Positions 3,226 to 12,371 of a DNA stretch of 37,941 bases are shown in pieces. This DNA is from Methanomethylovorans sp. (lineage in GTDB: Archaea > Halobacteriota > Methanosarcinia > Methanosarcinales > Methanosarcinaceae): the NCBI GenBank assembly GCA_014361205.1, contig JACIVZ010000008.1, positions 1 to 37,941 on the forward strand. The letters are read 5' to 3'. The translations under genes and the position numbers were made by a program. The notes beneath the pieces are model-generated. The model worked only from the letters and a program-made list of their open reading frames with translations, was not told where the DNA came from and made no database searches. The number at the start of each line of letters is the position of its first letter. Positions within the stretch are counted from its first letter, which is position 1.

Positions 3226-3563
3226 CTTTGTTGGTTTAGTTACTGCTTTTGTCATTGCATATTACATATTTATTTGTGATGTTCTGCTAATATTGGTATG
3301 TAAACATTTTAAAATCTTACGATTTGTATAGTTTTAATGCAAATTGGCAATTAATTAAAAACTGCAATTAAGAATAAACCTATAATACACCAATACAGAT
3401 ATATTGATTGACATAAAAACATTATTACGTTATAGTAAGTCACTTGGGGGTGAGATGGGGATATCATCACTATGGGGCAACAAAAGAGATATTTGAATAG
3501 TATCATGAATAATAAAGATGTTTCAATTTTTATTGCAAGCTGATAATAATTGAGTGATAAATT
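3226..3563. other. Intergenic region, no convincing gene
   Basis: AT-rich divergent spacer between mer and the first DUF2180 gene. A GC-richer patch at 3447-3480 contains GGGGGTGAG followed by ATG and a 13-codon frame, and an overlapping 28-codon frame with the stretch WGYHHYGATKEIFE. Both are too short to support as genes. Otherwise only TATA-like sequences are seen. Confidence 0.4.
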
Positions 3564-3803
3564 ATGAAATGCTATGAATGTACTAAAAATGAAAAAGAAA
3601 CAGATACAGTCGCTGTTTGCATAATTTGTGGAAGGGGTGTTTGCAAGGATCACCTTGTAAGAGAAGAGACACCAGTTTGGGAAGGAGAATACAGCATCAA
3701 GTTGAGATGTGGCATGGGAGTTGAATGCAAACTGGATGATATTAACCGTTGGAAAAAAGTGCTTTGCATACCATGTCATAAGGCCCTGAAGGAAAACTAC
3801 TAG
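3564..3803 (+). CDS. DUF2180 Cys-rich small protein, copy 1
   Basis: A 79-residue archaeal protein of unknown function starting MKCYEC. Paired cysteines, CYEC (3,6), CIIC (19,22), CKDH (27-30) and a final CIPCH, form a treble-clef or B-box-like zinc-binding pattern. The motif string AVCIICGRGVCKDHLVREE is typical of DUF2180 proteins of methanogens. It is followed, after a few bases, by a second shorter copy, and both lead into the redox cluster. GAGTGAT upstream is a modest ribosome binding site. A regulatory or metal-handling role is inference only. Confidence 0.8.
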   Translation: MKCYECTKNEKETDTVAVCIICGRGVCKDHLVREETPVWEGEYSIKLRCGMGVECKLDDINRWKKVLCIPCHKALKENY

Positions 3804-3814
3804 GTGATATGATG

Positions 3815-4030
3815 ATGAAATGTTACGATTGTATGGAGATGGGAAAAGACTCCACAGCAATATGTGTCTGCATAAGCTGTGGTAAAGGTCTATGCATGGA
3901 TCATACAAAGCAATTGGAAATACCGGTAACTGTAGGAACACCACCAGACTTGAAAAGACTTCCCAATAGCTTACCACGTCTTGTATGTAACTATTGCCTT
4001 AACCAGATTATTGAAGATGGATTTGATTAA
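3815..4030 (+). CDS. DUF2180 Cys-rich small protein, copy 2
   Basis: Paralogue of the preceding gene: MKCYDCMEMGKDSTAICVCISCGKGLCMDH keeps the same Cys/His order, ending in CNYCLNQ. Three ATG codons stand in a row (3809, 3812, 3815). The third is chosen because it gives the family N-terminus MKCY and six bases from AGGTGAT (3802-3808). The pair probably arose by tandem duplication and has diverged strongly outside the cysteines. Confidence 0.78.
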   Translation: MKCYDCMEMGKDSTAICVCISCGKGLCMDHTKQLEIPVTVGTPPDLKRLPNSLPRLVCNYCLNQIIEDGFD

Positions 4031-4058
4031 ATTATAGAAACGAATAGGAGGAAACGGA

Positions 4059-4424
4059 ATGAGCCCGCATAAAGATGTCTTAGAGGATAAAGAACTTGTA
4101 AAATCAATGTCAGAAAAATTGGGTTTTACTCCAGAGATTCTTGAAGTTCTTGGGGAACTCGAACCAGAGTTTTTGACTAAATACAACAGATGTAACCACA
4201 GATTATTGAAAGATGGTGCATTGCCTGCTAAAGTGAAAATACTCATGGCACTGGCAGTTGTTGCCTCGAAACAATGTGAAAAGTGTGTCATCTCTCAGAT
4301 GAAGAGCGCATTGGCTAATGGTGCTACTAAGGAAGAGATTATGGAAACAATGGATGTAATCTCCATCACGTCGGGAGCACCTGCAGTTGCAGCATGCAGG
4401 GATGCATTGAAATTACTTAAATGA
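4059..4424 (+). CDS. Carboxymuconolactone decarboxylase / AhpD-like protein
   Basis: A 121-residue all-helical protein of the CMD family. The core is [28 protein letters not shown], in which the CxxC pair takes the place of the AhpD peroxidase cysteines, followed by the usual hydrophobic helix ([14 protein letters not shown]). Family members reduce peroxides with a thiol partner, but many have unknown substrates. An AGGAGG site lies seven bases before the ATG. Being between the DUF2180 pair and the cytochrome gene it is probably part of the same redox or oxidative-stress group. Confidence 0.85.
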
Positions 4425-4485
4425 TCTTTCCCGGAAAGAATATGTCGTGGCTGACCTTATGTTAAAAGAAACTTACAGGTCAACA

Positions 4486-4513
4486 TTTATATTTATATTC
4501 AATTGTCGGGGGT
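4486..4513 (+). promoter_or_regulatory. TATA-like element before the cytochrome cluster
   Basis: TTTATATTTATATT (4486-4499) precedes GGGGG (4508-4512) and the TTG start at 4518. If this TATA is used, the transcript would begin almost at the start codon and lose the Shine-Dalgarno, so either an upstream promoter or a leaderless transcript is possible. Confidence 0.35.
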
Positions 4514-4517
4514 ATAA

Positions 4518-5937
4518 TTGATCAGATCCTTAAGAACCACATATTCAACATTTTTACTGCTTATTGCCTTGTTTACAACAATGTGTAATGTACTTGCAGC
4601 AACACCTACTGCGTACGGGGAATTATCTTCTGATATGTTCACAGATGGTACAAAATGTGCACAATGTCATGCTATCATTCATAATGAATGGAAAGGTACC
4701 ATGCACTATTATGCTTACGAAGATCCTTTCTATCAGAAAGAGTTTCTGGCTGCAAGCAATGATACAGAAGGTATAGTTGATATATTCTGTTCACGATGCC
4801 ATACACCAATAGGTGTGGTTTCAGGGGAAATTCCTCCAATTGATGGTTCAAATCTCAGTGACATCGCAAGACAGGGGGTACAGTGTGATTTTTGTCATGT
4901 GGTATCTGGCAGCAATGGAACAGGTAATGCACCTTTTGTTGTCAGTCCAGGGAATATAAAGTGGGGTCCTTTCAATGATTCAAAGGCAGCATATCATGAA
5001 TCTGAATATCTTGAACTATATACTAGTTCAGAATATTGTGGCATGTGCCATGAAGTGATACACCCGATTAATGGTCTTGTTATCGATGATACTTACAAAG
5101 TATGGAAGGAAGGGGTCTATGCCGAGGAGGGAGTTGTATGTCAGGATTGTCATATGACTCCAGGTATTACACAATTTGAAGCCAATCCAGGAAGAGCGGC
5201 ATCAGGTGCAAAAAAAAAGAGATCATATCTCCACGCATGATATAGTGGGTGGAAATGCATTTATTACGGGGATTCTTGGAGAGAAAAAATACAGCAAAAT
5301 GGCAGTTGAAAGGCTGCAGAAAGCTGCAACTCTTTCTATTGATGCTCCAACGATAGCTCAAAGAGGAAATAATGTAAGCTTTAATGTCTCTATTACAAAT
5401 TCAGGAGCTGGTCACAAAATACCTACCGGAGTTTCCGAGATCAGACAGATATGGTTAGCTGTAAGTGTAAAGGACCGCAACGGCAACGAAATTTATCATA
5501 CAGGAGATGTTAATGAGAATGGAACTATTGTGAATGCAATGGAAATTTATAACACAATTCTCGGTGATGCTCAGGGAGAGCCCACTTTAAGTTTCTGGCT
5601 TGCTGAGTCGATACTTAAAGACAATAGGATATCCCCCAAAGGAACAGTTTCAGAAAATCATACTTTCATAATACCTGATGAAGTGACATATCCACTTTCA
5701 ATTGAAGCAACCCTTAAATATCGTTCAGCACCACAACATCTCATAGATTATCTCTTTGGAGAGATGGTATATGAAGTACCTGTCATTGACATGACGTATG
5801 TTTCTACAAATGTCTATGAGAATGAGGAAGATGCCTCAAAAGCCATACCCTCTACTCCCGGAGTGGGCGTCTTGGGCTCAATATCCGTCTTGCTGTTTAT
5901 AGCAGAGTATATTGGAAAAAGGAAAAAGATGATTTAA
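4518..5937 (+). pseudogene. Pentaheme c-type cytochrome, frameshifted at an A9 run
   Basis: The first part (4518-5240) has a signal peptide and five heme motifs: CAQCH (C47), CSRCH (C91), CDFCH (C123), CGMCH (C174) and CQDCH (C208). At 5210-5218 nine A residues put the frame out and it stops at 5240. The frame one base later runs on from 5209 to 5937 with HISTHDIVGGNAF, a beta-rich region and a C-terminal membrane helix (GVGVLGSISVLLFIAEY) followed by GKRKKM. Removing one A gives a continuous 472-residue protein, exported and membrane-anchored. M. acetivorans, from memory, has a similar pentaheme cytochrome next to Isf-type flavoproteins. Whether this is a mutation, a sequencing error or slippage cannot be told; the intact downstream frame argues against old decay. 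Confidence 0.82.
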
Positions 5938-5979
5938 ATTATACCGGTTTGTAGAAAATATTTTGAAAGGAGACAGAAT

Positions 5980-6171
5980 ATGCCTGCAAAAGTAAATCCG
6001 AATATATGTGAAGGAATAGGGTCATGCAAAGAAGCTTGCCCGGAGGATGTGTTTGAACTGAAAGATGATGAAAAAGGAAATATTAAATCCGTGGTTAAAA
6101 ATCCTGATAATTGTATAGAATGCGGACTATGTGTAGATGCATGTCCCATGGGGGCAATAACCATCGAATGA
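5980..6171 (+). CDS. Ferredoxin, 7-cysteine type
   Basis: A 63-residue dicluster ferredoxin. The second motif is complete (C45-x2-C48-x2-C51-x3-C55-P). In the first, C10-x5-C16-x3-C20-P, the usual second cysteine is Ile13. By analogy with 7Fe ferredoxins this suggests one [4Fe-4S] and one [3Fe-4S] cluster. A GGAG-containing site (AAAGGAGAC) precedes the ATG. Placed between the cytochrome and the iron-sulfur flavoprotein, it is the likely soluble carrier of this cluster. Confidence 0.9.
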   Translation: MPAKVNPNICEGIGSCKEACPEDVFELKDDEKGNIKSVVKNPDNCIECGLCVDACPMGAITIE

Positions 6172-6207
6172 AGCTTAAATGAATAGAATACACAATGGAG
6201 TGCATTG

Positions 6208-6852
6208 ATGACTGTTGATATGACTATCAGACTGCTTGGAATATCGGGAAGTCCTAGGAAAAAAGCAACTGATTATATAGTAAATGAAGCTCTAAGATAT
6301 GCCCAGGAGAAATTTAACGTTGAAACCGATTATTTCTCTGCAAGTGGAAAAGACTTGAAGTTTTGTATTCACTGCGATTATTGTGTGCGTAAGCAACAAG
6401 GGTGTATCCACAAGGATGATATGGTGGAACTTTATGATAAAATGCTGTGGGCTGATGCCTGGATTATAGGTACTCCGGTCTATCAAGGTACTTTAAGTGC
6501 ACAGACAAAGACTATATTGGACAGATGCAGAGCAGTTGTGGCACGGGATCCGAAAGCTTTCAAAAATAAACTGGGTTCAGCCACTGCAGTGGGAGGCGAT
6601 AGGATAGGTGGGCAGGAACCTGCCATTCAAAGTATACTGAACTTCTATGTGATCAATGAGATGTTACCCATTGCTGGTGGATCCTTTGGTTCAAATCTGG
6701 GGGGCACTTTCTGGTCTCAGGACAAGGGAGCAGAAGGGGTTGCTGAGGACTCAGAGGGTATGCGTAGTCTTTACCGTACTGTAAATAAACTTATAAAGGC
6801 TGCCCAACTGATCAAACAAGCTAAGCTGGAGGGTATGTCATTTGAAGTTTGA
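6208..6852 (+). CDS. Iron-sulfur flavoprotein (Isf, NADPH-dependent FMN reductase family)
   Basis: A flavodoxin-like protein of about 214 residues. LGISGSPRKKATDYIV near the N-terminus binds the FMN phosphate. The compact motif CIHCDYCVRKQQGC (C-x2-C-x2-C-x6-C) is the mark of Isf and holds a [4Fe-4S] cluster. GTPVYQGTLSAQTKTILDR is the second conserved FMN region. Isf of Methanosarcina takes electrons from ferredoxin and reduces oxygen or peroxide. ATG 6208 is preferred to TTG 6205, with GGAG seven bases upstream. Its end overlaps the next gene by 11 bases. Confidence 0.92.
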   Translation: MTVDMTIRLLGISGSPRKKATDYIVNEALRYAQEKFNVETDYFSASGKDLKFCIHCDYCVRKQQGCIHKDDMVELYDKMLWADAWIIGTPVYQGTLSAQTKTILDRCRAVVARDPKAFKNKLGSATAVGGDRIGGQEPAIQSILNFYVINEMLPIAGGSFGSNLGGTFWSQDKGAEGVAEDSEGMRSLYRTVNKLIKAAQLIKQAKLEGMSFEV

Positions 6853-7540
6853 GGAAAAAACCATCGATATTATCAGAAGGACACATGATGTAAAAAGCTT
6901 CAGATTCCGGCGCCCCGCAGGTTTTGATTATAAGCCGGGTCAGTACATACTTGTAAGTCTGAAAGTAGAAGGTGATATGGTTACGAAACCTTTTAGTCTA
7001 TCCAGCAGTCCAACTGAAAAGAATCATATTGAATTTACCAAAAAACTCACAGGTCATCCTTTTTCAAATGTGCTTGATAATATGAAAATCGGGGATTTTG
7101 CGGTCATTAGTGGTCCATTTGGGAAAATGACATTTGAAGGGGAGTATTCAAAAGTAGCATTGCTAAGTGGTGGGATAGGTATAACGCCTATGATCAGTAT
7201 CTGCAAATATTGTACTGATATGCACTCTGATGTTGATATTATGCTAATATACAGTAACAAGACAGAAAACGATCTTGCATTTAAGCAAGAGCTTGATGAG
7301 ATGATGCAGGATAACATCAATTTAAAAGTACTGTACACTTTGACCCGTGCATCAGAGAGTTGGACAGGTTGCCGGGAACGTATATGTGAAAACATGGTGG
7401 TGAGAGCGATACCTGATTACAAGGAAAGATTATTTTTCATATGTGGTCCACCTGCAATGGTCAAATCCATGGAAGATATGCTGACTTCAATGAACATTTC
7501 AGGCGATATGATCAAAAAAGAGTCACTTATTGGTTACTGA
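6842..7540 (+). CDS. FAD/NAD(P)-binding oxidoreductase (ferredoxin-NADP reductase family)
   Basis: A 232-residue flavin reductase. The N-terminal beta barrel carries the FAD motif KPFSLSSSP (RxYS-type), the middle GGIGITPMISI is the nucleotide-binding loop, and FICGPPAMVKSMEDML near the end is the usual NAD(P)-side motif. There is no C-terminal [2Fe-2S] cysteine set, so it is a simple FNR-like module. TTG 6842 is the start, nine bases after GGAGG; the gene overlaps isf. It could link pyridine nucleotides, or another reductant, to the ferredoxin and flavoproteins on either side. Confidence 0.9.
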   Translation: MKFEEKTIDIIRRTHDVKSFRFRRPAGFDYKPGQYILVSLKVEGDMVTKPFSLSSSPTEKNHIEFTKKLTGHPFSNVLDNMKIGDFAVISGPFGKMTFEGEYSKVALLSGGIGITPMISICKYCTDMHSDVDIMLIYSNKTENDLAFKQELDEMMQDNINLKVLYTLTRASESWTGCRERICENMVVRAIPDYKERLFFICGPPAMVKSMEDMLTSMNISGDMIKKESLIGY

Positions 7541-7556
7541 AAAGTTGAGGGTTAAT

Positions 7557-8120
7557 ATGAAAAGGATAGCATGGGGAATAACAGGTTCTGGAGACCTTAT
7601 AAAAGAGACGTATAACGTAATGGTGGATATTAAGAAAAACACAAATGTTGATTTTATGGTTTTTCTTTCCAAAGAAGGTGAAACGGTTATGAAGTGGTAC
7701 AGGATGTGGGAAGACATACAGAGAGATTTTCCTAACTTCAAAACCGATGCTGGACCAAACTCACCTTTCATTGCAGGACCTTTACAGCTTGGATATTATG
7801 ATATGCTAATAATTGCTCCTGCCACAGCCAACACCGTAGCCAAGATAGTGCATGGTATAGCCGACAACCTGGTGACTAATGCAGTTGCTCAAACGGCTAA
7901 AGGTGATACTCCTATCTATATTCTACCGGTAGATAGAAAAAAAGGCACTATTACAACCTATTCCCCCAAGGGAAAAGAAATGAAATTAAAGATGAGAGAT
8001 ATTGACATTGAAAACACACAAAAACTATCCAGAATGGAAAATATTACAGTACTGGAAAGTCCTGAGGATCTGTACAAGATAATAGGTATTTCCAAAGATA
8101 AAATGTTAGATAAAAGTTAA
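7557..8120 (+). CDS. afpA: Archaeoflavoprotein AfpA
   Basis: A 187-residue flavoprotein of the HFCD superfamily, starting MKRIAWGITGSGDLI. The fold signature is the early Gly-rich loop plus LIIAPATANTVAKIVHGIADNLVTNA near residues 80-105, which binds FMN. AfpA of Archaeoglobus was shown to accept electrons from ferredoxin and sits beside an Isf gene; the same arrangement is seen here. A TTG at 7530 is possible, but ATG 7557 with GAGGG five bases ahead gives the family N-terminus. The gene converges with the DUF429 gene and overlaps it by 15 bases. Confidence 0.88.
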   Translation: MKRIAWGITGSGDLIKETYNVMVDIKKNTNVDFMVFLSKEGETVMKWYRMWEDIQRDFPNFKTDAGPNSPFIAGPLQLGYYDMLIIAPATANTVAKIVHGIADNLVTNAVAQTAKGDTPIYILPVDRKKGTITTYSPKGKEMKLKMRDIDIENTQKLSRMENITVLESPEDLYKIIGISKDKMLDKS

Positions 8121-8924
8121 GCCTTCAGTTGTGTAAGGCTCACCTGTTTGAGTTATACTAAATAGACTCGGGATGGCACAGAACACAGAATAGGCTGCAA
8201 TTATGCTGTCCAGAGTATCACCTTCAGTATTCCCAAGGGCTTTCTCTAAAATCTCATTTGGTATATCCAATGCTTTTTTTTCAAGATTGTTCAGAATATA
8301 TTCTCTGGCAGTTTTTTTGTTTTTTTCTTTTCCTTTATATGGTAAATATATTCCTTCTTTTTTCAGGGTAGATGCAGGACATATTTCTACAATCCACGGC
8401 ACATCCGGGCTTAATGGCTGCATGGGGATTATACTGGCAGCACCTGTAAGTACAAGAGGTCTTATGATATGTAATATACCATAATAGGTCTGTTTATACA
8501 ATCTAATATTATATACACAGAAAGGCGCTTTTACTTCTTTATCAGTTAATCTTTTGATCTCTACATTCTCAGAAAGTTTACGGTTTATATTTCTGAAATC
8601 ATCACTACTAGGATAAATCATGGGAAAATTACGAATTAATTCTTCCCAATTATAACCTTTCATAAGCTGAAAGGGAATTCCAAAAGGGAAATCCATTCCA
8701 AAAATAGAATGTTTATTGGAGATTATCAGATGAAACAAAACATTGAGACATTGTTCTCTGCTAAGCTTACCAGAATTCAATTTACTTATGGGGTAACATT
8801 CAAGAATAGATAATCTTGTGCCAGCCACTCGTGCGTGGCTGACCCAAATTTTATTACAGGCAGTCTTTGCACCGCTGAAATCCACACCAAAGATTTCACG
8901 CTGCCCATATGCAGCCGGGGACAT
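8106..8924 (-). CDS. DUF429 family protein (predicted RNase H-fold nuclease)
   Basis: A 272-residue protein beginning with IFGVDFSGAK, the first acidic strand motif of DUF429, followed by FGMDFPFGIPFQL and the late GNTEGDTLDSIIAAYSVF, where acidic residues again line up as expected for an RNase H-like site. Function in the cell is unknown. The gene starts four bases after the ino1 stop codon, without a clear ribosome binding site, so it is probably translated by coupling. Confidence 0.75.
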   Translation of the reverse strand: MSPAAYGQREIFGVDFSGAKTACNKIWVSHARVAGTRLSILECYPISKLNSGKLSREQCLNVLFHLIISNKHSIFGMDFPFGIPFQLMKGYNWEELIRNFPMIYPSSDDFRNINRKLSENVEIKRLTDKEVKAPFCVYNIRLYKQTYYGILHIIRPLVLTGAASIIPMQPLSPDVPWIVEICPASTLKKEGIYLPYKGKEKNKKTAREYILNNLEKKALDIPNEILEKALGNTEGDTLDSIIAAYSVFCAIPSLFSITQTGEPYTTEGLTFI

Positions 8925-8927
8925 ATT

Positions 8928-10031
8928 TTAATTGTCTCTCTTACCAGCTATGAATTCGAGGGTCATATTGTAGGCTTCATCGTCAGTGAACTGTTTAGGC
9001 GGGTGCTTCATAAAATATGCAGATGGTGAATAAAGTATGCCTCCAGTACCTCTGTCCAGAGCAAGCCTGCAGCATCTTATGGCATCAATAACAACACCAG
9101 CAGAATTTGGAGAATCTTCTACTGATAAACGTAATTCGATGTTCATTGGAACATCACCGAAAAGTTTTCCTTCCATTCTGAGGAAGCATACTTTATTATC
9201 GTTCTGCCAGGGTACATAATCACTTGGACCTACATGGATGTTGTCATCATCCAGGCGCTCTCCCACCACTGACTGCACAGCTTCTGTCTTTGATTCTTTC
9301 TTAGAGGCAAGCCTATTACGGTTCAGCATGTTAAGGAAGTCGGTGTTCCCTCCAGTGTTTATTTGATATGTTCTTTCAAGCTTCACACCTCTTTTGCGGA
9401 AAAGGTCAACTAAGGTACGATGGGTAATTGTAGCACCGAGCTGAGCTTTGATATCATCACCAATTATTGGAATACCCTTATCCGCAAAACGTGCAGCCCA
9501 TTCCGGTTTGCTTGCAATGAATACAGGCATGTTGTTAATGAAAGCCACGCCTGCCTCGAGGGCACATTCAGCATAGAACTGGGTGGCAAGCTCTGACCCA
9601 ACAGGCATGTAATTCAAAAGTATCTCAGCACCAGAATCTTTCAATTCTTTTACAACCTGTTCTTTTTCAAATTGTTGTTCCTCTGAGATTATGAACCTAC
9701 GTGAATCGGGATAATCTTTCATATGTTCTGAAACTCCGTCCAGCACCTTTCCCATCTTGACGATCACGCCAGTTCTTGGAATATTGCTACAAAAAACAGT
9801 AGTGCAGTTGGGTAAGGCAAAGATTGCTTCAGATACGTCCTTTCCGACTTTTCTAGCATCAATGTCAAAGGCAGCTACAACTTCGATATCGAAAGGCCGG
9901 TACCCGCCCAGATCCCAGTGCATCAGCCCTATGGCATCCTTTGGAGACTTATTTTTATAATATTCAATACCTTGAATGAGCGAACTGGCACAGTTGCCAA
10001 TCCCGGCAATAGCTATCTTAATTTTGCCCAT
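8928..10031 (-). CDS. ino1: Inositol-1-phosphate synthase
   Basis: Converts glucose-6-phosphate to L-myo-inositol-1-phosphate with NAD+. This feeds archaeal inositol phospholipids and, in some species, inositol-based solutes. The 367-residue sequence opens with IAIAGIGNCASSLIQGIEYY, the Rossmann NAD-binding loop, and has AFDIDARKVGKD, the lysine-bearing GDDIKAQLGATITHR and NTGGNTDFLNML, all typical of the short archaeal/actinobacterial form. GAGGT precedes the ATG at 10031. It is co-transcribed with the DUF429 gene. Confidence 0.93.
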   Translation of the reverse strand: MGKIKIAIAGIGNCASSLIQGIEYYKNKSPKDAIGLMHWDLGGYRPFDIEVVAAFDIDARKVGKDVSEAIFALPNCTTVFCSNIPRTGVIVKMGKVLDGVSEHMKDYPDSRRFIISEEQQFEKEQVVKELKDSGAEILLNYMPVGSELATQFYAECALEAGVAFINNMPVFIASKPEWAARFADKGIPIIGDDIKAQLGATITHRTLVDLFRKRGVKLERTYQINTGGNTDFLNMLNRNRLASKKESKTEAVQSVVGERLDDDNIHVGPSDYVPWQNDNKVCFLRMEGKLFGDVPMNIELRLSVEDSPNSAGVVIDAIRCCRLALDRGTGGILYSPSAYFMKHPPKQFTDDEAYNMTLEFIAGKRDN

Positions 10032-10341
10032 TAGATTACCTCATGATCAAAAGAATTGAAGAATATGATATCATTTAATAAATTTAAACTCCATAATGGA
10101 AACGGGGTAATAAAAAGGTTTCTGAATACATGTATTCATCGGCTTACTTTTCCAGTAATTTGGTATATCTTTATTCATTATTGTATATGTATTCGAAAGT
10201 TATATAATTTGACAGGTTCTAATATCAGCAGGGGGCTTCTGCAAATTTGTCTTCAGTCATGTATATCTTATCTATTTATTGGTATGCATATGGACTTACA
10301 GGCAACAAACTTTGAGATTAATTACATGGAGATGGATTATA
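10032..10341. promoter_or_regulatory. Divergent promoter region, ino1 / rubrerythrin
   Basis: About 310 bases without a gene. On the plus strand GTTATATAATTT (10199-10210) is a TATA-like box that would give the rubrerythrin transcript a leader of about 100 bases. AT-rich sequence near 10060-10090 could serve ino1. I see no clear operator or hairpin. Confidence 0.35.
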
Positions 10342-10833
10342 ATGAAAGATGTATTACAAGAGATATCTGAAGAACTCGATCAACTAAGTACAGTGGAAGA
10401 AGCCATTGATGTGGCTATCAAGCTTGAAGAAGACGGAAGAGCATACTATTTAAATAAAGCAGAAACAATGACAAATCCGGCTGCCCGTGAACTTTATACT
10501 TTTCTTGCAGATGAAGAGAAAAAACACGCTGAAATGCTGAGGAGATTCAAAAATGGTGATAAAACTGTGTCACATGTTGAGCACCATTTTCCAGATTTTA
10601 CCCCTTCACTGACTCAGGAATTCTCAGACAAAAAACTTGAAGAGATAGGGATTCTGCTTGCAGCCCTGCGTTTTGAGTATAAAAGTGAGTATTTCTATAT
10701 GGAACTTGGAAGGAGGGCAACAGATCCAGAACAAAAAGAGTTTTTTGACAACATAGCTGCAGCAGAAAGAGGACATTACAGACTTATATATGAAATGTTA
10801 CAGATTGCTACAGAGTTCAGGATGCAGACATAA
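10342..10833 (+). CDS. Rubrerythrin-like diiron protein without rubredoxin domain
   Basis: A 163-residue ferritin-like four-helix protein. Diiron ligands appear in KLEEDGRAYY (first helix), ADEEKKHAEM (second), EYKSEYFYMELG (third) and AAAERGHYRLIYEM (fourth). The C-terminal rubredoxin domain of true rubrerythrin is absent, so it needs an outside electron donor. Likely a peroxide reductase. ATG 10342 is chosen over an earlier in-frame ATG (10279) because GGAG stands ten bases ahead and the family N-terminus fits. Followed after 12 bases by fprA. Confidence 0.87.
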   Translation: MKDVLQEISEELDQLSTVEEAIDVAIKLEEDGRAYYLNKAETMTNPAARELYTFLADEEKKHAEMLRRFKNGDKTVSHVEHHFPDFTPSLTQEFSDKKLEEIGILLAALRFEYKSEYFYMELGRRATDPEQKEFFDNIAAAERGHYRLIYEMLQIATEFRMQT

Positions 10834-10845
10834 GGGGCGATATTA

Positions 10846-12048
10846 TTGGCAAACGAAATACAACCTGTTAAAATATCCGATGGCATATACTGGGTAGGTG
10901 TTGTTGACTGGAACCTGCGTGATTTTCATGGATATGAGACACCAAAAGGCGGAAGCTACAATGCATATTTGATAGTTGATGAGAAAATAACTCTTATAGA
11001 TACTGTAAAAGCGCCATTTTTTGAAGAAATGCTGGGCAGAATTTCTCAGATAGTGGATCCATCTAAAATAGACTATATAGTATCCAATCATGTAGAAATG
11101 GATCATTCCAGTTCCTTGCCATTTATGATGAATGTAGCTGCGAAAGCAAAAATTGTCTGTTCAGCTAAAGGGAAAAAGGGGTTATTTGAACATTATAGGG
11201 AAATGGGTTTTGAAAACTGGGATATACAGGTTGTGAAAACCGGAGATGAGATAAGCGTTGGAAAAAGGACAATGCAGTTCATTGAAGTGGTGATGCTCCA
11301 CTGGCCAGACAGCATGCACACATACCTTAAGGAAGATTGTATACTCTTCTCTAACGACGCATTTGGACAGCATATAGCCACCTCAGAAAGATTCGAAGAT
11401 CAGGTGGAAGGCGTGATGGAAGATGCAGAGATCTATTATGCCAATATCCTTATGCCATTTGGAAAGCAAGTGCTTGTTTATGCTGAAAAGGTGAAGCAGA
11501 TGGGGCTTAAGTTCAACATGATAGCCCCTGCACATGGAGTTATATGGAGAAAGGAACCTGAAAGAATTATTGAAGCCTATGTTAAATGGGCTAATGCTGA
11601 GGCAAAACCGTCAGTATTGATAGTATATGATACTATGTGGAACAGCACTGAGATAATGGCAAAGGAGATTCTTGAAGGTGTGCAGTCTGCAGGAGTTGAT
11701 GTTAAATTGAGAAACCTGCGAAAGAATGACTGGAGCAAAATAATAAAGGAACTTATGGATGCTTCTGTGGTTGCTATAGGATCACCCACATTAAACAATG
11801 GTATGTTCTTTACGGTTGCAGGGTTTCTTAATTATATGAAAGGTTTACGGCCAAAGGGCAAGAAGTTTTTCGTTTTCGGTTCATATGGCTGGGGCGGTGG
11901 TGCAGTCAAAGGAATTGAAAAAGAACTCACAGAATCAGGTTTTGAAATTGCAGAACCTGGATTTCAGGTAAACTTCAGACCATTTGAAGAGGATAAAGCA
12001 AAGTGCAGGGAGATTGGTAACCGACTTGCATCCCTTGCAAAGAAATAA
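10846..12048 (+). CDS. fprA: Flavodiiron protein FprA (F420H2 oxidase)
   Basis: Reduces oxygen to water, in methanogens with F420H2 as donor. Residues 1-250 form the metallo-beta-lactamase domain with diiron ligands in NHVEMDHSS (H82, E84, D86, H87), later HWPDSMHTY, SNDAFGQH and APAHGVIWR. Residues 255-400 are the flavodoxin domain (VLIVYDTMWNSTEIMA, GSPTLNNGMFF, GSYGWGGG). Size and order are typical. The start is TTG at 10846 with AGGGG eight bases ahead. It follows the rubrerythrin-like gene and precedes an FTR gene, giving an oxygen-defence set. Confidence 0.95.
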   Translation: MANEIQPVKISDGIYWVGVVDWNLRDFHGYETPKGGSYNAYLIVDEKITLIDTVKAPFFEEMLGRISQIVDPSKIDYIVSNHVEMDHSSSLPFMMNVAAKAKIVCSAKGKKGLFEHYREMGFENWDIQVVKTGDEISVGKRTMQFIEVVMLHWPDSMHTYLKEDCILFSNDAFGQHIATSERFEDQVEGVMEDAEIYYANILMPFGKQVLVYAEKVKQMGLKFNMIAPAHGVIWRKEPERIIEAYVKWANAEAKPSVLIVYDTMWNSTEIMAKEILEGVQSAGVDVKLRNLRKNDWSKIIKELMDASVVAIGSPTLNNGMFFTVAGFLNYMKGLRPKGKKFFVFGSYGWGGGAVKGIEKELTESGFEIAEPGFQVNFRPFEEDKAKCREIGNRLASLAKK

Positions 12049-12095: not shown

Positions 12096-12371
12096 GTGAG
12101 ATTCGATACCCCACTTGAAGAGGAGTTTTTTGAAAAGTCCAAGAAGAATGCAATGCTAACAGGCTACAAGCTGAATCCAGACTATGATGTGATAGTTACA
12201 GCTGTGAAAGGAATAGCCAATAATAAAAAACAATATGGAGAATGGTATTGTTTCTGTCAGAAAAGGACTGGCGATAAAGAGGCTGACAAGAAGATAATCT
12301 GTCCATGTGAGGCCAGAAATCGTGATATAGAGATGCGTGGCTCCTGTAAATGTGGGTTATATATAAAATAA
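12096..12371 (+). CDS. Ferredoxin:thioredoxin reductase catalytic chain
   Basis: A 91-residue FTR beta-type protein. The six expected cysteines are present as CFC (52, 54), CPC (69, 71) and CKC (84, 86), which by alignment with the plant/cyanobacterial enzyme give a [4Fe-4S] cluster (52, 69, 71, 84) and the redox disulfide (54, 86). It would pass electrons from ferredoxin to thioredoxin or a similar disulfide protein. No variable (alpha) subunit gene is adjacent, as is usual in archaea. GTG start with AAGGAGT upstream. Confidence 0.9.
   Translation: MRFDTPLEEEFFEKSKKNAMLTGYKLNPDYDVIVTAVKGIANNKKQYGEWYCFCQKRTGDKEADKKIICPCEARNRDIEMRGSCKCGLYIK

Follow-up and report, generated by a model that had tools for sequence, protein, structure and literature searches.

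We analyzed a window of DNA from Methanomethylovorans sp. (contig JACIVZ010000008.1; the window is the whole stretch, 37,941 nucleotides) and, within it, a cluster of redox genes at positions 3564 to 8120 that is a candidate system for defense against oxygen and reactive oxygen species (ROS). The cluster encodes two DUF2180 proteins, an AhpD-like protein, an exported pentaheme cytochrome, a ferredoxin, an iron-sulfur flavoprotein (Isf), an FNR-like reductase, and the archaeoflavoprotein AfpA. Profile matches confirmed all eight genes called in an earlier sequence-only reading: DUF2180a and DUF2180b match PF09947 at 76 and 75 bits (cutoff, 22), the AhpD-like product matches a CMD/AhpD-like profile at 67.7 bits, the AfpA product matches TIGR02699 at 269 bits, above the curated cutoff of 192, and the Isf product is an FMN_red protein with the compact Isf-type cysteine motif. 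The tight spacing and overlapping gene pair described in that reading were also found, with gaps of 5 to 93 bp and an 11-bp overlap between the Isf and FNR genes. Its limits for the cluster proved too short, since genes for a rubrerythrin, FpaA, and a ferredoxin:thioredoxin-reductase-like protein belong to the conserved neighborhood as well; in the window, the rubrerythrin and FpaA genes lie 2.2 kb downstream of the cluster, beyond two opposite-strand genes. The features are as follows.

3446 to 3466, plus strand: GGGGGTGAGATGGGG, a genus-specific conserved sequence about 100 bp 5' of DUF2180a
3564 to 3803, plus strand: DUF2180a, a small putative metal-binding protein (CxxC/CxxCGxGxC..H/CxxC)
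3809 to 4030, plus strand: DUF2180b, a paralogue of DUF2180a
4059 to 4424, plus strand: AhpD/CMD-family protein, with the CxxC kept and Gln at the catalytic-His position
4518 to 5240, plus strand: first part of the pentaheme cytochrome gene (frame 1), encoding the signal peptide and the heme-binding portion and stopping at the frameshift
5209 to 5217, plus strand: A9 run, site of the one-base frameshift (A8 in relatives)
5212 to 5937, plus strand: pentaheme cytochrome, C-terminal part in the shifted frame, with a GAGHKIPTG motif, an Ig-like domain, and a hydrophobic tail
5980 to 6171, plus strand: 2[4Fe-4S] ferredoxin, 63 amino acids
6208 to 6852, plus strand: iron-sulfur flavoprotein of the Isf type, CIHCDYCVRKQQGC
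6842 to 7540, plus strand: FNR-like FAD/NAD(P) reductase lacking a 2Fe-2S domain
7557 to 8120, plus strand: AfpA archaeoflavoprotein (TIGR02699)
10339 to 10833, plus strand: ferritin-like protein of the rubrerythrin family, in the downstream arm of the neighborhood
10846 to 12048, plus strand: FpaA/FprA, a flavodiiron protein of the F420H2-oxidase type, downstream arm
12096 to 12371, plus strand: ferredoxin:thioredoxin reductase beta-like protein, downstream arm

Conservation of the neighborhood in relatives

We mapped the window proteins by tblastn onto more than 100 neighborhoods and counted genes on the same strand within 5 kb at the 66 loci that matched the cytochrome strongly and had sufficient flanking sequence. 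DUF2180a, DUF2180b, AhpD, and Isf each accompany the cytochrome in 63 of these loci, AfpA in 60, the FNR-like gene in 49, and ferredoxin in 35, showing that the DUF2180 and AhpD genes travel with the cluster, a point for which the sequence-only reading had proposed such a comparison. Superoxide reductase (SOR) was present in 17/66 loci and classical rubrerythrin in 15/66; within 9 kb, FpaA was found at 56 and rubrerythrin at 55 of 65 loci. This conservation of gene order is much greater than that expected by chance. AhpD is missing from three loci, all of family f5, where a homologue of FpaA is encoded next to the cytochrome but on the other strand.

Several relatives carry additional antioxidant genes within the cluster. 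SOR (PF01880, 109 bits) lies between AhpD and the cytochrome in Methanosarcina-type and some other genomes, and a classical rubrerythrin with a rubredoxin domain lies between the FNR-like gene and AfpA in several genera. A desulforedoxin-like open reading frame (ORF) of 37 to 55 amino acids precedes DUF2180a in 28 of 75 distinct upstream regions, with PF06397 matches of 54 to 72 bits for the three tested; in Methanosarcina acetivorans, this ORF is probably MA4664. In Methanosarcina, Isf, AfpA, rubrerythrin, and FpaA are contiguous.

The cytochrome is optional, and the cytoplasmic core is not. One genome without the cytochrome (G018, locus L169) has the order rubrerythrin-FpaA-ferredoxin:thioredoxin reductase-DUF2180a-DUF2180b-AhpD-ferredoxin-Isf-FNR-rubrerythrin-AfpA, the locus of a second (G024, L172) also lacks it, and no cytochrome match was found elsewhere in either genome. 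In 14 further genomes, picked for the absence of an intact cytochrome gene, Isf and AfpA with a nearby rubrerythrin are kept in every case, and one of these genomes (G135, L284), with only a remnant of the cytochrome, has the rest of the cluster intact. AhpD and SOR are also absent from the locus in the 12 Methanosarcina-like genomes among these 14, while both are present at the cytochrome-bearing Methanosarcina-like loci shown. Thus, AhpD, SOR, and the cytochrome are kept or lost as a unit. The same unit stands alone in family f2 (L218, L226), which named relatives place in ANME-2 (anaerobic methanotrophic archaea).

A phylum-wide search identified close homologues of the cytochrome (44 to 50% identity) in families f10 and f12, which lie outside the order and which we guess to be ANME-1-like. 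SOR directly follows the cytochrome in 13 of their 14 loci (12 genomes); in the remaining one, the cytochrome lies about 2.3 kb upstream of SOR. Genes for peroxiredoxin, catalase, ferritin, and FpaA-like proteins come next in most of the 13 loci, and an EncFtn/rubrerythrin-like gene lies 5' of the cytochrome where the contig extends that far. One genome (G218) has three copies of the cytochrome-SOR cluster (L264, L265, and L266), each on its own contig. Since L266 and L268, the latter from another genome, look almost the same, with cross-contamination possible, there are somewhat fewer independent cases. The neighborhoods of distant homologues in family f9 (24 to 28% identity) showed no antioxidant link, so this link is confined to the closer clade. 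The pairing of cytochrome and SOR across families and the unit-wise behavior of AhpD, SOR, and cytochrome are new; we did not find the pairing in the literature searched.

Locus L160, which we take to be that of M. acetivorans, in part from its gene order, has the orthologues arranged in the same order next to mer. In the window, a gene for a luciferase-fold F420-dependent reductase, probably mer, lies 5' of the cluster on the opposite strand, with an FrhB/FpoF-type gene and an NMNAT-like gene. Judged from its genes and their arrangement, the window cluster corresponds to the M. acetivorans set MA4664/MA3734-3743, with which it shares DUF2180a, DUF2180b, AhpD, the pentaheme cytochrome, Isf, AfpA, rubrerythrin, and FpaA. 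Compared to that set, the window gains a ferredoxin and an FNR-like gene, is without SOR and the desulforedoxin ORF, and carries a frameshifted cytochrome; DUF429 and myo-inositol-phosphate synthase (MIPS)-like genes on the opposite strand intervene between AfpA and rubrerythrin, so that rubrerythrin and FpaA are not contiguous with the cluster in one transcription unit. A passage of PMC3729527, citing Lessner and Ferry 2007, calls the M. acetivorans set a putative oxidative-stress operon. A system that appears in PMC3729527 by title alone pairs an F420H2 oxidase with rubrerythrin/rubredoxin-type genes, as found near the window cluster, but as far as that title goes it has no cytochrome, Isf, AfpA, or DUF2180, unlike the window.

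The pentaheme cytochrome

The window cytochrome belongs, on its sequence features, to the pentaheme cytochrome (PHC) group, having five CXXCH motifs, a signal peptide, and a C-terminal Ig-like domain. Its best PDB profile match is Thermochromatium tepidum c552 (5ZE8; E value, 4.7e-13), with a weaker match to the selenoprotein MccSep (9WT8/9WT9), for which our literature search found no paper, and its best NCBIfam relative is ExtKL (NF040886), at 28 to 65 bits, below the 250-bit cutoff. Foldseek also ranks 5ZE8 first, but the heme half of the AlphaFold (AF2) model is poor (mean pLDDT, 47.8), so this result merely backs the sequence match. A 2025 cable-bacteria paper places ExtKL and Gsu2801 together in PHC, remarks that the group is structurally homologous to c552 and to the archaeal nanowire AvECN, and counts it among potentially catalytic cytochromes with a pentacoordinated heme (PMC11976967). 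The window cytochrome shares the five CXXCH motifs, the GHxxPxG motif, and the C-terminal Ig-like domain with ExtKL, Gsu2801, c552 (5ZE8), and MccSep (9WT8). In contrast to that family, it has Val in place of Sec/Cys after the GHxxPxG motif, and cytochromes of its type have a hydrophobic C terminus, often a PGF-type tail.

In our alignment, all 84 proteins have five CXXCH motifs, and the only other invariant His residues are at 63, 160, 240, and 299; His236 occurs in 96% of the near group and is substituted in some. With four other invariant His residues for five hemes, one heme could have an open axial site. PGF is present in 64/84 tails, with PF18204 matches in L268 and L154, and an archaeosortase matching PGF-type tails is present in the genome of the window organism; the window cytochrome itself ends in PGV, which is not recognized as PGF-CTERM. 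A nanowire role is disfavored by the membrane tail and by membership in the pentaheme rather than the tetraheme group.

The cytochrome listed in the sequence-only reading does not form one continuous ORF. Its five CXXCH motifs and signal peptide stand, but the gene is split over two frames: these elements lie in a frame that runs to 5240, and the remainder lies in the next frame, to 5937. The frame is lost after AAAAAAAAA, at about 5209 to 5217, through one extra A that makes the run A9. Two loci of the same genus (L144 and L145) have GGTGCAAAAAAAAGAG, with A8, and one intact ORF of about 470 amino acids, and all five same-genus genomes searched have a cytochrome gene without the A9 frameshift. 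An order-wide search found homologues in about 100 genomes, nearly all of the close ones as one open frame of about 460 to 500 amino acids. Nonsynonymous divergence (pN) is 0.08 to 0.13 upstream of the break and 0.13 to 0.17 downstream, compared to synonymous values (pS) of 0.56 to 0.75, and by this measure both halves are under purifying selection. Because neither half shows much nonsynonymous divergence and nearly all of the relatives are intact, we read the A9 frameshift as a sequencing or assembly error or a very recent mutation. A true frameshift would make the window cytochrome a pseudogene and leave only the cytoplasmic module working here; the disruption by the extra A and the remnant in G135 fit this idea, but homopolymer length errors are common in assemblies, and the sequence conservation of both halves and the intact frames of the same-genus genomes make it improbable, at perhaps one chance in four. 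We rejected programmed frameshifting, as relatives show A8 or another sequence together with an open frame.

Two other interrupted cytochrome genes were observed. The second copy in one genome (G017:C4, 1749 to 3040) is likewise split over two frames, and the cytochrome gene of Methanococcoides seepicolus (L050, 4596 to 5498, probably G120) matches without a break except for an in-frame stop following residue 301; the stop in G120 is TAG, and it may be a pyrrolysine codon or a mutation.

Proposed function and alternatives

From the gene content and order, the antioxidant neighbors in two separate archaeal groups, and the dispensability of the cytochrome, we conclude that the cluster is probably an oxygen and ROS defense module. 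The sequence-only reading had offered two uses for the system, electron exchange with the outside or removal of oxygen and peroxide, and every neighborhood test backed the latter, so that the function of the cluster is now better supported than when first proposed. The conclusion also draws on the oxidative-stress operon of M. acetivorans, on the deletion results described below, and on the chemistry of Isf and AfpA. Isf proteins with the compact CX2CX2CX4-7C motif, which we take to be the Isf cluster motif, are encoded in the loci listed; Isf reportedly reacts with O2 and H2O2 (work of Cruz and Ferry in 2006), and AfpA is reduced by ferredoxin.

We infer the direction of electron flow, the activity of each protein, and the role of the cytochrome as follows. 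In the cytoplasm, electrons from the ferredoxin pool and probably from NAD(P)H would pass to the ferredoxin, Isf, the FNR-like protein, and AfpA, and these carriers would feed reductases of O2, H2O2, and superoxide, namely, Isf itself, rubrerythrin, and F420H2-fed FpaA, with SOR, desulforedoxin, and classical rubrerythrin as further acceptor enzymes in other genera. AhpD would probably be a thiol/peroxide helper, and the cysteine-rich DUF2180 pair would probably bind metal and serve in regulation or assembly. The exported cytochrome would be held by its tail at the outer face of the membrane, where it most likely clears O2, superoxide, or peroxide or drains electrons before they leak to O2. 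Consistent with such a role are the presence of just four other invariant His residues for five hemes and the potentially catalytic heme described for PHC relatives. The cytochrome would draw on a membrane pool (methanophenazine or other cytochromes) and not directly on the cytoplasmic carriers. A link from the ferredoxin or pyridine nucleotide pools to the surface, as the sequence-only reading had suggested, does not appear to be encoded, because hydropathy predicts a membrane segment in the cytochrome but in no other cluster protein.

MA3739 is the sole five-heme cytochrome of M. acetivorans (PMC6703419) and, from gene order and heme count, is presumably the orthologue of the window cytochrome. 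Its deletion affects neither reduction of anthraquinone-2,6-disulfonate (AQDS) nor electron uptake from Fe(0) (PMC6703419, PMC8546582, PMC10989991), and an earlier study of direct interspecies electron transfer (DIET), as told in PMC10989991, agrees that uptake from Geobacter is also unaffected. These results, the missing conduit, and the conserved SOR, catalase, rubrerythrin, and FpaA neighbors argue against the set being an extracellular electron transfer (EET) system, in which minerals, partners, or electrodes would give electrons to the cytochrome or take them from it, and the cytoplasmic carriers would link it with ferredoxin and NAD(P)H. We consider an EET system unlikely, even though the cytochrome is exported and anchored and its family, which includes ExtKL, is related to archaeal extracellular cytochrome nanowires. 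Like MmcA and the EET cytochromes of Methanosarcina, it is an exported multiheme c-type protein; in contrast to MmcA, it has five hemes rather than seven, and its gene is not beside Rnf. Several observations weigh against oxygen defense. MA3739 transcripts increase with AQDS (4.1-fold) and also in DIET, as those of an electron-transfer protein might (PMC6703419, PMC8546582, PMC10989991); in favor of an EET role, they rise by 80% as well when MmcA is absent. MaMsvR, the redox regulator tested, does not bind the corresponding M. acetivorans promoters. SOR and classical rubrerythrin are absent from the cluster in the window's own genus, and when the window organism's genome was searched, classical rubrerythrin was not found, and the sole SOR-like match elsewhere was a distant one. 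Lastly, AhpD keeps its CxxC but has Gln in all loci in place of His, presumably the other catalytic residue; peroxidase activity is therefore doubtful, and the protein may not be a peroxidase. On balance, the surface cytochrome is more likely to be part of oxygen defense than a wire to the outside.

It is less probable still that the neighbors have no common function and that their order merely reflects a slowly rearranging stretch beside mer and fpoF. These genes and the NMNAT-like gene, which serve methanogenesis and NAD metabolism, are conserved equally alongside. However, the genes inserted into the cluster are themselves antioxidant, AhpD, SOR, and the cytochrome are missing jointly from this locus in the 12 Methanosarcina-like genomes described above, and the cytochrome-SOR pairing recurs in other families amid wholly different surroundings.

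Within the defense reading, we advance more tentatively, at somewhat less than even odds, that the cytochrome is a surface reductase or oxidase of superoxide, peroxide, or O2 and the extracytoplasmic partner of SOR, and that AhpD, SOR, and the cytochrome form a mobile oxygen-defense unit shared by methanogens and, within the same phylum, by other archaea that are probably methane oxidizers. If so, the pentaheme ExtKL/c552 family would gain a detoxifying role in place of that of an assumed electron wire. The cluster also suggests a specific, testable function for MA3739, whose deletion showed no phenotype in assays to date. Methanogens and related archaea are increasingly found at oxygen-exposed sites, and the pairing of cytoplasmic O2 and ROS reductases with an exported multiheme cytochrome suggests that they also handle oxidants outside the cell; it cautions that not every multiheme cytochrome in such archaea is an EET protein.

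Both DUF2180 copies retain CxxC, CxxCGxGxC..H, and CxxC across loci, enough conserved Cys and His residues to make two metal sites per protein feasible. A fold search with a structural model (pLDDT, 69.7) yielded weak zinc-finger matches but nothing significant, and we found no mention of DUF2180 in the literature searched; our guess is a redox-sensing regulator or a metal-site protein.

The genes separating AfpA from rubrerythrin in the window are DUF429-like (8106 to 8924, minus strand) and MIPS (8928 to 10031, minus strand), an arrangement found in most genera but not in Methanosarcina. Upstream of the cluster, GGGGGTGAGATGGGG had no match in other genera; across same-genus genomes it has 0 to 2 mismatches, and it could be a Shine-Dalgarno sequence with the start of a short leader ORF.

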